From Owenia fusiformis (lineage: Eukaryota; Annelida; Polychaeta; Sabellida; Oweniidae): a stretch of DNA of 64,000 nucleotides. Numbering within the stretch: the stretch's first letter is position 1; every line of letters starts with the position of its first letter. The stretch covers positions 22,988,822 through 23,052,821 of the forward strand of contig CAIIXF020000008.1 of the NCBI GenBank assembly GCA_903813345.2. Direction: 5' to 3'. A program made the translations under genes and the position numbers. Positions 5,213 to 59,105 of the stretch are shown here, piece by piece. Under the pieces are notes generated by a model. It saw only the letters and a list, made by a program, of their open reading frames with translations. It was not told the origin of the DNA and did not search any database.

Positions 5213-8200
5213 TCACATCACTTGACAGGCAGAATCAACAATTGTCTTTACATATTTGGACAACTGGTTAAATGATTCCATATAGAAAATGTTATCATCT
5301 CCATCTCCAGTCGCTATAGCCCGCCATTCGTCCTGTCCAGCTAGACCTTGTAGTTTAATGTTTGGCAAAGCAATAACAAATGATATTATTCCAGCCGCTT
5401 GGTTGAGCTTAGCTTCACGAAGAGTCTCCTCTTTCATATCATTCGGCCATGTTTCTCCATCAGTGATAACAATCATGACTTTCTATAATATTACAAAATA
5501 CTACCATTGGTACTTGTCCAACACAGGGAGGTACTTTCATTTAAAATACCAGCCATTTTGTTCAATTTATTTTTCAAATACATGTATATGTCTGCATAAC
5601 AGGTAATTAATCATAAAACCATCATATTTCTAATATATAATCCATTAGATTTTATTTACTCCAAAATTTGAGAGTATACCAGGGTGTTCTTGACATACAT
5701 TAGGTAGACCACAGTTATGTATGTTTATCATACTTACTGTTCTATCAGGCCTTAGGCCATTATCTTCATGGAAATATTCTTCCCTGGCATTTTTCAGTGC
5801 AAGCCAAGTTGAAGTACCACACTCGCTTTGTGGCACATCTAATTGCATCTCATCTACAGCTTTGAGGAGCTGGAACACATACGAGTAGTATATTATTATT
5901 ATTTTATTTACTTGGTGGCACACCTCAAAAGGGTACTATACATATATAAAACATTTTACAATCAATCTTTCAATTTGATATAAACTTTGTTTAAAAATCT
6001 CTTGGTAAGAGAATCAAATTTAAAACCAATTTCATGCCCATAATTCAAAAATACAATTAATTTTGGTCACCCATAATGGATATCTTTAAAACCCCTGAAG
6101 GAATTACTTATCTTTCTTGCACATTACTTTATCTTTCTTGCACATCAAGAACGAGGAGAGGAGAATATGTATATATATTGCAAACCTTGATGACATCATT
6201 TTGGGGTTATCAAATGACTTAAAAGCAAAGGAATTTGAGATTAAAGGGACACTACAGAAAGGTACACATGATTCTAAATGGATTGACTGTGCCTATGAGA
6301 TTCTCCTTAACAACATAAGTGTAACCAGGCTGGACTAAAATGGATTCATGATCATATTGCTGAATTCATGAAAGATGTACCAGACAGAGTACTAACATTA
6401 CAAGCAGATATACAACATGTTGTTTAAAGGTGTAGCTTGTACTTCACTCACGTAATATGTGATGGACGCAATTGTCTGCACTTCAAGATTTTCTTTAAGA
6501 CCTAAGAAGTGACTTTCACTTAGTCTAAGTAGATCTATACAATCGCAATCACAAATAAGCACCTTTTCAGGAAATCCTGGAGTGAGGTTTGTGAAGTGGA
6601 GTGAGCTTATTTTCAATGACATTGTCTATTTCTTAAGGTAGTCCATTTCATCCCCTCCAAGACAAGTAAAATACAGAAATATGAAAACTTACATTTTTTT
6701 TCCTAGGGTATGAATTTAAATGTGCTACTGGAATAACTGACTTGGCGAAGGTAAGGATGCCCACTTGTGTAAGGACGGATCTGATTGGTAGAGATCTAAC
6801 GGCTCGCCATATGAACTTTTGCACTTTTTTCTTATCAGCCATTGTAATACTGCAGGATATGTCCACATTGAATACGAGTTCTATTCCACAAATTTTGACA
6901 TCAATAGGTACTAAAATAAAAACAAAAATTGGAATGTGGATGTTTGGAATGAAAATAGGTAAAAGAAAAAAATTTAACAATTCAAATCAAAATAATTCAA
7001 AGCGATATATAATAACATTATTTTAATTATCAACATGCATACAATATGAATTTCTTTAGCACATAATACGTATAGATCCTCTTTTAACTATGCACACTTT
7101 TCTAATAATTAAGGTCTCTATCCTCTATTCCACGTTTTCATTTGCGTGAAGGAACACAGTTTCAATACACAATATGAAACAGTCATGAGGAAATGTATTG
7201 ATGAACTTCATTAAAAGTAAACTTACATATTCCTTTATCTGCCAGACTCCGCTTACATAGTTGACTTGGTTGTGTGCAGGGATTAGAACTTGATCCTCTC
7301 CCCTTGAAGTCGTACCTTTAGTTTAAACAAAGTTGATTTTGATGATATGCATGTATTCCATATGATGAATTACTACCAAGTGTAACTTGAGATGAAAATA
7401 TGTAAGTTTGACAACTATATTTATCATCGATTATAAAACTGGAAGTGTGTTCTGTGACATCCGTGTGTGAATATTTCAATTATTCAGATTTTGCCATGGA
7501 TTTGATTTTAAATGCTTCTAAATGATCTTCTAATGCTTACTATGATTTCTATTAGTAATGTTTTGACTTTCCTGCTTCATAACATTATCAACATTTACTC
7601 GACTCAAAATTTCACTTCTAATCTATTGTAATAAAGAGGAGCTGAAAGTTGTCATATACAACTTTCAATCCTCAGTCTTAATATGGCTTTTCAAGGTTCA
7701 ATAGCCGAGTCTGAATGGACCTCCATGCATATAGTATATAAAAATATAATCATCAGAGAAGGTTTTAAACTATGAAATCGAATTTTGAACCATTTTATCG
7801 GCTGTATTTTACAATGTGCCTTTAAAGGATATATCCTAAGTCAAGAGTAATTTCAGACCTGCCAGTATAAATTTTTGTTACCTTTCTACAATTAATATTG
7901 CCAGTAGTTACATTTAGCCCACATGTATGGCATTATTTTTGCTTCTTTATTCATTAAATTCAAATATATTCGATATATGAAATATTTATATTCGCTAAAT
8001 CATTTTTCCATTCGGTAAAAACGTTTATTTGTTTGTTACAGCAAATTAAGTTTTCAAAATAGCCAATTGCTTAATACTATGTGCATTAAATTACATATTT
8101 CATTCGTTAAATGATATTTTTTGCGTAAATTGTTATGGTATTCCTTAAGAGTAACACATTATATGCACAATATTGAATTTCTATTTGAACCCTACCGAAA

Positions 8201-54677: not shown

Positions 54678-56704
54678 TTAACTTCCAGGAACTCCTTTGT
54701 CAGTTTGATACATTTCATATGCAAATTTCTCCTGGTGCATGTGATCACAGTAAGCAGCAATAAAGTCAATCTCCAGGCCAAAATCTCCAGGCTCCCCTAA
54801 CTGTGTGATACTCATATAGGTAACCTTATGGAGGATCTCTGTCAGGGGTTGCTGTCTGTCCTGTATGCGTCCTTTAGCACTGTGGAAGAACTTTGAGAAA
54901 GGGATCTGAAATATATATATGATCATGATGCTGTAACCTGAAGTGTTTGGTAATGTAATATAACTTGATTGGTTTTGCACTTGGAGTGTAGAGGAATATA
55001 ATTTTAACTAGATAATCACAACACCAAATTGTAAAAATTCCCATTGAACTTCTTGTAAATGGAAGACAAAGCTGCTAAAAATCAGGTCGCTTAGAGAAAA
55101 CAAAAATGTAATATACACAGATCGACGAAAGTGTTTGTTTGATAGAATTTATATTAATACCATCATGTTACATAGAGATATAGGAGACTCAATTAACCAA
55201 TGTTCTTCTGAGATAACGAAGATTTAATGTATCCCCAATCCCATCACGATAGCATGGTGATATAATGATATCCCCATGTTAAGTCAATAGTGCATTCCCC
55301 ATGTCAATACTGCTGAAATCCTCATGTTTTCAGAAAACACTGGTTGATTAAGCCTTAATCAGTAGAAATGGGTTACTGAGTATTTCTAAAACCAATCACA
55401 ATTGGTTAGAAAAGGGATTATTTAACAGGAAGTTTCACTTGGTTTTCAAAGCTTTTGGTTACATATTATGTAATCAGAAGTAATATCAAAGCAACTTCAT
55501 TGTATCTTATTAAATTTAATACACCTGTATATTCTAATATAAGGAATACAATGAGGGACTGCACATGTGATAAGCCATAAAATGACGTGACAATTGGCAT
55601 GACCATTATGGAATATCTTACCTTAGCTGTCTGCCAGTATGGACCTCCTCTAGTGAACAAGGCAAATTGAAATATGTTATTCCAAGTTATATCAAAGAAA
55701 CTATCCACTCCAAGGTTGAGAATATATGTCCTACCATCTCCACGAGCTCGTATCATTAGGTGACTAAATCCTGTCCAGTCATATGTATCGGCTCGCTGGA
55801 AAGATCTCTGGAAAAAGAAAAATGGAATTTGTTTTCATCCAGCAAAATGACCAAGAGACCGACTGCACACTTCCTTGTTCCAACTTACAAAAGGATCAGG
55901 TATGGTATTGCAAACAATATTGAACAGCTTTATTTTTGACAAGGAGTAAGTTGTATTTTTAGATCAAACATTCCTCATTCTACATCAGAACAATATATAA
56001 TTTTCAATTGGATTTTACCGATAGAATGTGGATTAGGAGCCCATCTTGTCAGTTTTTCAAAAAGTTCTAATTTTTGGGCAAAAGAAGATAGTAAAATTGT
56101 GATTGCTACTTTTCGAAAGTTTCCCCTTTCTTAAGACTACTGGGTAAAATTGCTTTTCTCACATTCATGCAGCTAATCTTTTACTATGAAAATGCAGTAT
56201 TCTCACCAAATTTCTAGGAGATTTTATATTGCAGTACCCTGCATATTTGTTAATTCCAGTCTTTGGAACAGTTCTATCAATAGTGCCATGAAAGTATCCC
56301 TTTCTGTTCTCATTCAGGCTAAATAAACATTTGCTTTTTCCTTCATTATTGTCACCATCTGAGGTGACGGTCCATTTTTCAATATCCTCCTGTGAATTAA
56401 AACTCCACACTTTTTGGAATTCACCCTGGTCAAAACCAAATATCATGTCTGCTTTCTCACATTTGAATTTTTCAACAGTTTCTTGTCCAAATAACTTCAT
56501 TTCATCTTTCATCATTCCGAGACCAGTTTTTATATGCTCCTTTGGTGTTTTCTTATTGTCTTTCTTGTAACCACTTTTACGATCTTTCTCCCATAGGATG
56601 ATGCTATTTGAGAGAGCAGATGTACGAAACGAAGACCATCCATTGCACTGTACAGCTCTTGGAAGCAAAATGAGACCCCTAGAAGCAGCTAACATGTTCC
56701 TCAC
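54678..56704 (-). CDS. NDUFAF1: Complex I assembly factor NDUFAF1 (CIA30)
   Basis: Mitochondrial chaperone-like factor of the complex I assembly (MCIA) machinery. Three exons: 56207-56704, 55622-55807, 54678-54905; all GT-AG and phase 0; 303 residues (human protein 327). The first ~40 residues are Arg/Ser-rich with few acids, as in a matrix-targeting peptide (MRNMLAASRGLILLPRAV). The CIA30 domain starts near residue 97 with KVWSFNSQEDIEKWTVTSD. It continues with GYFHGTIDRTVPKTG, YAGYCNIKSP, FQRADTYDW, LMIRARGDGRTYILNL, FTRGGPYWQTAKIPFSKFF and GRIQDRQQ, and closes with LEIDFIAAYCD and EKFAYEMYQTD. It is transcribed toward GNPNAT1 and diverges from the retrocopy at 56926. Confidence 0.95.
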
Positions 56705-56914
56705 TTTTTAGCCACACCTTGCCATTGGAAGAATCACCTGAAATAAAAACAAATCCAGATTTTTAAGTACATACTTCAGTGCATTGGTACTACTTAGGGA
56801 TGGGATGAGAAGGTAGTGTTCACTTCTTGGACCAACTGACTGATGAAACATGTTGTTCATTATTCAATTTATTTGTTGACAGCTTAGCAGAAATACTGAT
56901 TTTGAGCAACATCA

Positions 56915-56925
56915 ATGTTGATAAT
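56915..56925 (+). repeat. Target-site duplication, left copy
   Basis: ATGTTGATAAT, identical to 58321-58331 directly after the poly(A) tract. With the preceding A the match is 12 bases. It brackets the retrocopy. Confidence 0.75.
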
Positions 56926-58320
56926 GTTGATGGAGTGGCAAGGTCAAGCAAACAAGGAAGCAGAGGAAAAAAGTGCTCGTAAAAAAAGCTAAAAATCAGT
57001 GAAATATATAGAACATTGCAGAAAATAAGAAGAAACAATGATTCCTAAGATTGTTGAGCATCTGATTAGTGAGTTACAGGACGAAGGGTGCATTCTAGGA
57101 GGATATAAGATAAATTCAACAAACAGTGGAACAACTATTACATTGGAATATAAAGCACACCATTTTTACAACCCAAGGTCACAAACCATTACCAAGTCAC
57201 CAAGTAGACTTATTAGAGATGCAAATAGGATTAGTGATTACAATTCTAACAAAAAGCTGTTGAGTGAATCAAAACACCATGAACAAATAGGATTATGTGA
57301 ACAGTCAACACCTGTGAAGCCTGTACTAAATGGAGACTTGTTTAAAAACTGTAATAATGAAAACAGTGAAATTGTAAACAATAATAATGAAACTGGGGGT
57401 GATTATAGAGACGACAGTGGATTTAATTCAATATTGCCGAATTCGGGAGACAGAATCAAAAAAGTGAATGTCAGGATGCAAACAGATGTTAAACAAAAAA
57501 GACACCAATCAAGTGCAACAGAGTTAAAAGTGCAACATGTTGCCACTAAAACAAATAATTTGGATAAAAAACACAGAGGCTGCAGTGTCAACATCAAGAA
57601 ACAATCTGACAACAAATCAGCACAATGCGAAAATAACAAAGTTTCCAAACTGACAAACACTGATTCGATTTCAACACGTGATGTAGCAGGACTTACTAAC
57701 TTCAGCCTCGCAACATGTAGGGAAAGATATATGCGCTTCCTTGATGATTTAGGAGATGATCATATGTATGATTCAGATGCCTATGATTATGTGATGAAGA
57801 CAAACAAATAATGATGGACAAATACTAGAAAAATTAACAATATGTGATAAACTTTCGAATTCATGACAAGAAATGAGCAAGATGAATTAAGGGATGCAAA
57901 TGATTTTTCTTTAAGTGACTGAGTTTTTGAGACGATGAAGATCATTAATTAAGACTCGATCTATCTGGAAATCCAGTGGTGTTGAGCAATTATATCAAAT
58001 CAACTTCTCTTAACTTTTTAGACATATCAAGATGATCCTTTTAGCTTGTCAAGCTTTTCTTATTATAATTTGCTGTATTATGTATGAAGAATAAATATAT
58101 GAAAAAAAACAAAAAAACATTGTATGTATCAATGTCAATTTTATAGTGTTATTTAGTAAACTGGTCATTGTGTTTGCAAAGGTTTTGAATATATTAAAGT
58201 ATGCTTTTTGGTATGATTTTCTTTACTTTTATGAATATGTGAATAATATAACTGAAGGAATATGCCAGAATGTAGTACGGAATAAAATTGAATTAGAAAA
58301 AAAAAAAAAAAAAAAAAAAA
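56926..58320 (+). mobile_element. Processed retrocopy with poly(A) and target duplication
   Basis: An intronless cDNA-like unit: a ~112-base leader, an intact ORF (57038-57811), a ~485-base 3' UTR with AATAAA at 58281-58286, and 25 A residues at 58297-58321. The 11-base direct repeat ATGTTGATAAT (56915-56925, 58321-58331) flanks it. This combination is the signature of LINE-mediated retroposition of an mRNA. It sits 221 bases upstream of the NDUFAF1 start codon, in the opposite direction. Confidence 0.72.
57038..57811 (+). CDS. Uncharacterised intronless protein (retrogene)
   Basis: A 257-codon intact ORF; not recognised. The start is set by an in-frame TAA four codons upstream (57026). The N-terminal ~45 residues look folded (VEHLISELQDEGCILGGY, TTITLEYKAHHFY). 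Residues ~50-220 are hydrophilic, rich in Asn, Lys, Ser and Asp, with a poly-Asn tract, and are probably disordered. The C-terminus has a compact acidic end (CRERYMRFLDDLGDD, YDSDAYDYVM). No signal peptide, membrane segment or catalytic motif is visible. It lies inside a unit with a poly(A) tail and target duplication, so it was probably copied from a spliced mRNA of a parent gene outside this window. The uninterrupted frame suggests a recent insertion or selection. It could borrow the divergent NDUFAF1 promoter region; that is inference. Confidence 0.65.
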   Translation: MIPKIVEHLISELQDEGCILGGYKINSTNSGTTITLEYKAHHFYNPRSQTITKSPSRLIRDANRISDYNSNKKLLSESKHHEQIGLCEQSTPVKPVLNGDLFKNCNNENSEIVNNNNETGGDYRDDSGFNSILPNSGDRIKKVNVRMQTDVKQKRHQSSATELKVQHVATKTNNLDKKHRGCSVNIKKQSDNKSAQCENNKVSKLTNTDSISTRDVAGLTNFSLATCRERYMRFLDDLGDDHMYDSDAYDYVMKTNK

Positions 58321-58331
58321 ATGTTGATAAT
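58321..58331 (+). repeat. Target-site duplication, right copy
   Basis: ATGTTGATAAT immediately after the 25-base A tract, identical to 56915-56925. Confidence 0.75.
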
Positions 58332-58390: not shown

Positions 58391-59105
58391 AACTAGACAA
58401 CAGCAACGCCAAAGCGTAGCAAATCCCATTGAACAGCCATGGCTGGCATTTTTACAAACAAAGTACATAGCCAAAAATGGCAGCCATTTTTCAAAATGGC
58501 CACTTTCTACCAAAAGTGTCATTAGACAGTGTGCCATGCTTATAGTATAGGGGGGGGGGGGGGGGGGGGGGTAGGTACGAAAATTTCCAATGAACATGCG
58601 TGACATATACGGGATTCGCGTGACAAATCCGAACAAATTGCGTTCGTTTTTTCCCGACGTTCGTATTTTTACCGTATCATAAACATATTTTGAAAAATTT
58701 TTTACAGAAACATATTTCCGTGACAATTACCAGGTAAAATGCGTATTTGCGTGACATTTTGTGTCACGCAAAAAAAACTGGCGTGACTTCAAATTCTTCA
58801 GCAAATGCGTGACAAATACGCAAATTGCGGGACAGTTGACAGGCCTGCTATTAGCTGCCATGTGCTTCTTTAATATCTACATTTCTAGCTTTATCAATGT
58901 CCTATATAATTCTTTTACATTTTAAACATATCGCTATTACAGTTTTACATATTGCACCTAAACTACTGTAAAATCGGCACTAAAATGGCCGCCATTTTCA
59001 AATGAATGGCCATTTTGAAAATCGGCTTTCGAGTAGAACTTCTACCCCCATAGAGTATATGTGTACAAAATATGAACAAAATCGGGTCAACACTATTTGA
59101 ATTAC
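58391..59105 (+). repeat. Family A repeat, left part, split by insertions
   Basis: Begins GACAACAGCAACGCCAAAGC and AATCCCATTGAAC as in other family A copies. It is interrupted at 58550-58853 by a family B element with a G tract, resumes at 'tgccatgtgcttctttaatatc', and is broken again at about 59106 by a LINE fragment. The right end lies at 59986-60048. Confidence 0.8.
58550..58853 (+). mobile_element. Family B element with 22-G tract, nested in family A
   Basis: Starts with 22 consecutive G residues (58550-58571), then GTAGGTACGAAAATTTCC, and ends CAGTTGACAGGCCTG. It matches 38415-38703 closely. It replaces or interrupts family A sequence between GCCATGCTTATAGTA and GCTGCCATGTGCTT, giving a clear insertion boundary for family B. 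Confidence 0.75.

Follow-up and report, generated by a model that had tools for sequence, protein, structure and literature searches.

Poly(A) tails, 5' truncation and target-site duplications of 9-17 nt at pyrimidine|A targets indicate target-primed reverse transcription of the LINE type. SVA and LAVA are mobilised in trans by LINEs and, like 3'-transducing L1 elements, can carry 3' flanking sequence when the first polyadenylation signal is bypassed. SVA and LAVA are not known to rely on a protein of their own. HAL1 (half-L1) elements also require the LINE machinery in trans. HAL1 elements of mammals are L1 derivatives of several origins that encode ORF1p only (PMC5753468). The Entamoeba repeats ERE1 and ERE2 have a single ORF without significant transposase hits, which evolves in ERE1 with an omega of 0.47-0.49; terminal inverted repeats are present in most, and their authors saw a likeness to DNA transposons (PMC2657916). 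Among the open-licence PMC papers listed for a few wordings, none has a title or abstract opening on a comparable element.

The window, which is the whole stretch of 64,000 nucleotides of Owenia fusiformis DNA that was analysed, carries near its 3' end a unit that is probably a fairly recent insertion of a non-autonomous retroposon, one with a low copy number and a protein-coding gene, which a LINE mobilises in trans. A HAL1-like lifestyle is the best reading of this element by analogy, and HAL1 is its nearest known kind. Like HAL1, the focal family is non-autonomous and encodes one protein that is not a reverse transcriptase (RT). Unlike HAL1 with its ORF1p, it has no detectable ORF1 homology in comparisons with the ORFs of seven LINE loci, a narrow sample. 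With SVA, LAVA and 3'-transducing L1 it would share mobilisation in trans by a LINE and the uptake of 3' flanking DNA, and it differs from SVA and LAVA in carrying a constrained ORF. It resembles ERE1 and ERE2 in being made of repeats with a single ORF, and departs from them through its poly(A) tail and its duplications of the LINE type. Processed retrogenes and retropseudogenes have the same form as the unit, an mRNA copied without introns and bearing poly(A), an AATAAA and a target duplication. Unlike these, the family has no intron-bearing parent among the matches found, related families have the same habit, and a retrocopy was apparently the template.

The intact 257-codon ORF (57038-57811, + strand) starts with ATG, has 0 internal stops, lacks introns and encodes 257 aa. 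It lies in a retroposon body of subfamily A (56926-58117, + strand) delimited by alignment to other copies. The other A copies that are long at the 5' end begin aligning at 56937-56941, so that approximately positions 56926-56936 are an extra 5' stretch of the focal copy. At the end of the body, in 58090-58117 on the + strand, lie the AATAAA that belongs to the family itself (58090-58095) and, after it, an A-rich stretch of composition A8 C A7 (58102-58117). A foreign segment follows (58118-58296, + strand) with the AATAAA that was used (58281-58286), and then the poly(A) tract of the focal insertion (58297-58320, + strand) with 24-25 A's, 1-2 of which are common to the target-site duplication. 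The two copies of this duplication, AATGTTGATAAT, are identical over 12/12 nt. The 5' copy occupies 56914-56925 and the 3' copy 58320-58331, its first A common to the tail; no strand is assigned to them. In a chance control of 3000 random placements within the window, comparing stretches of 25 nt and 15 nt set 1.4 kb apart, the longest exact match was 10, seen once, and a match of 12 never occurred. A run of about 20 G's is found just 3' of the insertion, at 58551-58571.

A preliminary description made from the window alone had already recognised the uninterrupted intronless ORF, the downstream AATAAA with about 25 A's and the retroposition of an mRNA, and the tail, AATAAA and target duplication confirm this. 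Its 11-base direct repeat is indeed a perfect repeat flanking the unit, with a length of 12 nt. The earlier AATAAA at 58090-58095 was absent from that description, while the multi-copy status of the unit and the foreign nature of 58118-58296 were outside what it could see.

A search of the 498-Mb assembly (525 contigs) revealed relatives of the focal unit at 30 loci, with DNA identities of about 70-98%. The protein search gave 64 matching stretches at E <= 10, which were grouped into loci by hand, yielding 28 loci at E <= 1e-5. The DNA search added two, both 5'-truncated, and all 30 were fetched. Subfamily A1 comprises the focal copy and L002, L004 and L008, 97-98% identical to it, while subfamily A2 (L003, L013, L014, L015) is 84-86% identical to the focal copy and subfamily B (L005-L007, L020-L027) 71-76% over the main stretch. 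Nine B copies (L005-L007, L020-L024, L026) are nearly alike, with pairwise dN of 0.005-0.027 and dS of 0.007-0.065. Two kinds of short sequence, GAGTTCA or TATAAA, precede the common start GTGGTAAAC of B copies. Comparison of the two types (L020, L022, L024, L025 versus L021, L023, L026) gives a hint that transcription starts at alternative sites or that 5' ends were joined on. In 731 shared columns, 10 substitutions are private to the focal copy, compared to 4, 6 and 7 in L002, L004 and L008. It thus carries the most private changes among close sisters, suggesting an insertion that is fairly recent and not the youngest. Beyond its 5' extra stretch and its foreign 3' tail, nothing was found that distinguishes it from these 97-98% identical sisters.

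An own target duplication of 9-17 nt together with an A-rich tail is present in 19 of the 28 copies examined (L049 and L050 lie outside this count), as found in search stretches of about 100 and 240 nt that are wider than those of the chance control. Duplications of just 9-10 nt, as in L007, L013 and L016, are weak; for L013 the automated pick in the control was an internal repeat, and the flanking repeat came from the wider search. No convincing duplication was found in 8 of the 28: L002, which lies in a tandem repeat, L015, L018, L019, L026, L028, L031 and L032. L029 and L030 are 5'-truncated A copies on different contigs that share their flanking DNA, and the duplication of L030 was therefore not counted as independent; this insertion was probably amplified as part of another repeat or by segmental duplication. 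Among the 19 copies, the base preceding the target site is C in 10, T in 8 and A in 1, and 18 have a duplication that begins with A, giving a pyrimidine|A pattern. Truncation at the 5' end accompanies a duplication in L004, L008 and L029, and occurs without one in L002. The combination of poly(A), 5' truncation and duplications at pyrimidine|A sites points to LINE-type target-primed reverse transcription.

The 3' end of the focal unit probably holds a trace of its origin. Long sister copies match only to about 58117, with AATAAA at 58090 followed by A's. The extra 179 bases (58118-58296) are an internal piece of another repeat, termed R: a search with this segment gives 39 matches, counting its own, and at 20 other loci the match covers 166 bases or more with 86-99% identity. 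None of these 20 loci coincides in position with a locus of the family. R extends on both sides of the segment in 3/3 loci read (L010-L012), with flanks ...TTTCCATATAA|CATTG and GAATTAG|AATATATTG..., and the segment ends 10 nt after the AATAAA of R, precisely where the focal poly(A) begins. Internal repeated stretches of R vary among its copies, and L010 (3.2 kb) has no ORF longer than 152 residues. By its sequence the extra segment is probably a 3' transduction, and R would then have flanked a source copy. The presence of R sequence with R's own AATAAA makes it likely that the template of the focal insertion was itself a transcribed retrocopy, inserted earlier in R. The A8 C A7 stretch is the probable tail of the source copy; it is interrupted by a C, in contrast to the uniform terminal tract, which would suit an older tail already resident in the genome. 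This difference also speaks against a template switch between two RNAs, a possible alternative given that no source locus was found in R: in the assembly the 18-base junction is exact only at the focal locus, with eight one-mismatch places elsewhere. If the segment was transduced, the absence of the exact junction elsewhere implies that the source is lost, polymorphic or unassembled.

Weak matches of the protein search (E 0.005-1.6) led to two more single-ORF families, C/E and D. The N-terminal part of about 70 residues is common to A/B, C/E and D, with 11 invariant positions in six sequences. C/E and D are retroposed too, as A tails, duplications and common 5' starts are found in the copies read. 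The duplication adjoining the tail has 13 nt in L034 and 14 nt in L036, and similar duplications were seen by eye in L033, L039 and L048. The start TAGATCAGGCAGAAC recurs in the C copies L033, L034, L035 and L047, and TGGTCCCTTACTGGACAGG in the D copies L036, L038 and L048; L037 carries the latter with two differences. A motif resembling AGCTCCYA, recognised by eye in the 5' UTRs of C, D and E (L033-L039), is a candidate internal promoter or RNA signal. On either side of the C copy in L035, in the opposite strand, are pieces that we take to be LINE endonuclease, and the D copy of L036 is flanked by what presumably are pieces of a DIRS-type pol, suggesting that these C and D copies inserted into other elements. 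In L023 (C3:10682300-10687600) about 2.5 kb separate a C/E copy from a B copy of opposite orientation. Positions 6131-6424 (+ strand) of the window hold a fragment of family D, covering roughly residues 281-396 of the protein; the window thus has members of two of these related families.

The preliminary description took the focal unit for a processed retrogene and proposed to look for a multi-exon parent in the same genome. The family of 30 loci, with an intron recognised in none, does not support a single copy of a spliced cellular parent. No intron-bearing parent of the focal family was found among the protein and DNA matches in the assembly, a search limited by assembly gaps, withheld stretches and short exons, and none of the related families C/E and D among their own matches. 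Several split matches were rejected as introns because they come with inverted repeats or with short duplications of the kind left by DNA transposons. The large gaps of L016 and L017 look like insertions, with a 4-nt repeat in the former and inverted repeats in the latter. L033 has the inverted repeats GGTAAC...GTTACC and TTAACCCT...AGGGTTAA, a CAGGGTGGG...CCCACCCTG unit between TA dinucleotides fills the gap of L048, and in the first gap of L047 lies a unit that has inverted repeats and a short repeat of its target. The interruptions of these five loci mostly look like DNA transposon insertions, in a classification that leaves out gaps 2 and 3 of L047 and the deletions in L018 and L019.

Is the ORF maintained by selection? 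Comparison of the focal copy with 11 B copies gives dN/dS values (NG86) of 0.29-0.41 at dS of 0.6-0.8, taken from a pairwise table of 19 sequences from which pairs with fewer than 100 codons were dropped. A neutral ratio of nonsynonymous (N) to synonymous (S) changes of 2.99, with kappa 2.24, was obtained from 70 singletons in 765 3' UTR columns taken as neutral. Fixed differences between A and B (33 N : 26 S) depart from this ratio (p = 0.0011), as do all singletons (85 N : 47 S, p = 0.0046), counted in 17 sequences with the frameshifted L025 and L027 left out; fixed differences between A1 and A2 (23:13) give p = 0.094. Ratios of fixed differences and singletons show no significant contrast (Fisher p = 0.33-0.41). 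Neutral decay after insertion is not claimed, singletons being about as constrained as fixed differences, a pattern that fits several constrained source lineages or low power. The private codon changes of the focal copy, 4 N : 2 S, give a binomial p = 0.47 against the neutral ratio, with low power. The family ORF is under coding constraint and this constraint is not particular to the focal copy. The dN/dS comparison that the preliminary description had suggested for its retrogene thus revealed constraint between subfamilies, but nothing specific to the focal copy.

These data can also be read as serial retrocopies shed by a germ-line-transcribed host gene that is now intronless, lost or unassembled, the copies being mostly pseudogenes and the constraint that of the host gene. 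This explanation accommodates the low copy number (30 loci), the constraint on source lineages and the small number of copies that keep the full ORF from the conserved ATG (5/28: focal, L003, L005, L006 and L021), and assembly gaps, withheld stretches or short exons could hide the parent. We consider it unlikely, as the matches include no intron-bearing candidate, several source lineages would be required (A1, A2 and B, plus C/E and D) and the R segment suggests that a retrocopy served as template. We privilege the mobile retroposon and infer that the unit under selection is the element, not a host gene.

The first 75 residues of the encoded protein are basic (pI 9.2). Residues 1-80 are predicted to fold as alpha-beta-beta-beta-alpha, with a pLDDT of 82 in the best of five single-sequence models and 56-72 in the others. 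The remainder is predicted mostly unstructured with very low confidence, and the whole-protein model has a pLDDT of 38. The order of secondary structure elements recalls the double-stranded-RNA-binding domain (dsRBD). Foldseek gives no match of the N-terminal domain at E <= 0.001: the best hit is a nucleotidyltransferase (E 0.036), and a Loquacious dsRBD1 entry ranks 25 with a non-significant E of 0.28. In VIA-align all Z scores are below 8, led by inositol-phosphate synthase and COMMD proteins, and no dsRBD figures among the 50 matches listed. The predicted dsRBD fold is thus a lead only. A PDB sequence search with the N-terminal profile has nothing below E 0.39, Pfam has no match to the focal protein better than E 0.14, and the best Pfam hit for seven A1 members is Ndr (E 0.0054), in one member only. 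The IMG/VR scan returned 22 pattern hits, of which 0 were confirmed. An RNA-binding, cis-acting role is suggested by the constraint and by analogy to ORF1p, and we tentatively propose that the element protein may bind its own RNA.

No RT-like ORF was seen inside the focal unit nor between the copy ends in 11 + 7 other loci. The helper would be an L1-like LINE with a poly(A) tail. A search for RTs in the genome gave 5343 candidates, of which 150 were scored, and seven LINE loci were read. In L041, whose two frames (307 and 1261 aa) read as L1-like, the tail counts 32 A's and the duplication, at CACC|AA, 13 nt. Among nine further loci with a similar RT, taken by RT score, the 5' stretch reached the element start in three (L053, L057, L059), one of which gave a recognisable 11-nt duplication at GT|AA; for the remaining six the placement missed the end or the copies were shorter. 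The L041-type targets fit the pyrimidine|A pattern, which, with two sites only, is nothing decisive. The family could also be an ORF1-only derivative of a LINE of the same genome, a HAL1 in the strict sense, to which the tail, target duplication, 5' truncation and constraint on a single non-RT ORF would all conform. Comparison by pairwise blastp of seven family proteins with the forward-strand ORFs of at least 60 residues from the seven LINE loci produced a single hit, of E 0.79 and inside ORF2, which within this sample of seven loci speaks against such a derivation, a reading that we hold to be unlikely.

Outside the element, on the minus strand (55466-56704), lies the NDUFAF1-like gene noticed in the preliminary description and now supported by Pfam. 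Two ORFs cover consecutive parts of the CIA30 domain: 56165-56704 (-) matches with E 1.1e-6, above the Pfam cut-off, and 55466-55753 (-) with E 6.2e-5 and 23.5 bits, just under the cut-off of 24. The likely NDUFAF1 ATG is at 56695, and 218 nt separate it from the first base of the duplication, which lies upstream; this is close to the 221 bases reported before. A single processed retrogene with a gained host function and a promoter common to NDUFAF1, such as the bidirectional promoter that the preliminary description thought possible, would agree with the intact ORF, tail and duplication and with the head-to-head position 218 nt from that ATG, but is very improbable for a member of a multi-copy family that otherwise resembles its 97-98% identical sisters and whose private changes (4 N : 2 S) are, at low power, not distinguishable from neutral. 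Since the focal copy belongs to a mobile family, its nearness to NDUFAF1 is most simply incidental, a chance placement.

The mobile retroposon that we favour could have reached this site as follows. A copy of the element would have inserted into repeat R, as an earlier retrocopy. A transcript from this R-located copy would have run beyond the family's own AATAAA into R and been cleaved at the AATAAA of R. The polyadenylated transcript would then have been reverse transcribed at a nicked AT-rich target by target-primed reverse transcription, for which a LINE would have supplied the endonuclease and reverse transcriptase in trans, leaving the poly(A) tail and the 12-nt duplication. The encoded protein might bind its own RNA and favour its own copying, as ORF1p does in LINEs. 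A broader proposal is that A/B, C/E and D are LINE-dependent families that each encode an RNA-binding-like protein unrelated to ORF1p, with cis-preferential access to the LINE machinery and element-level selection, an arrangement previously undescribed in animals. We regard this broader proposal as rather doubtful.

An intact intronless ORF with a tail and a target duplication beside a gene is not alone proof of a new retrogene. The R segment marks one retrocopy that probably gave rise to another, which is of use in telling a mobile element apart from a host gene that sheds copies. If the protein is kept by and for the element, the family would represent a second route to gene retention besides ORF1-only LINE derivatives and, if true, this would bear on the competition among RNAs for the LINE reverse transcriptase.
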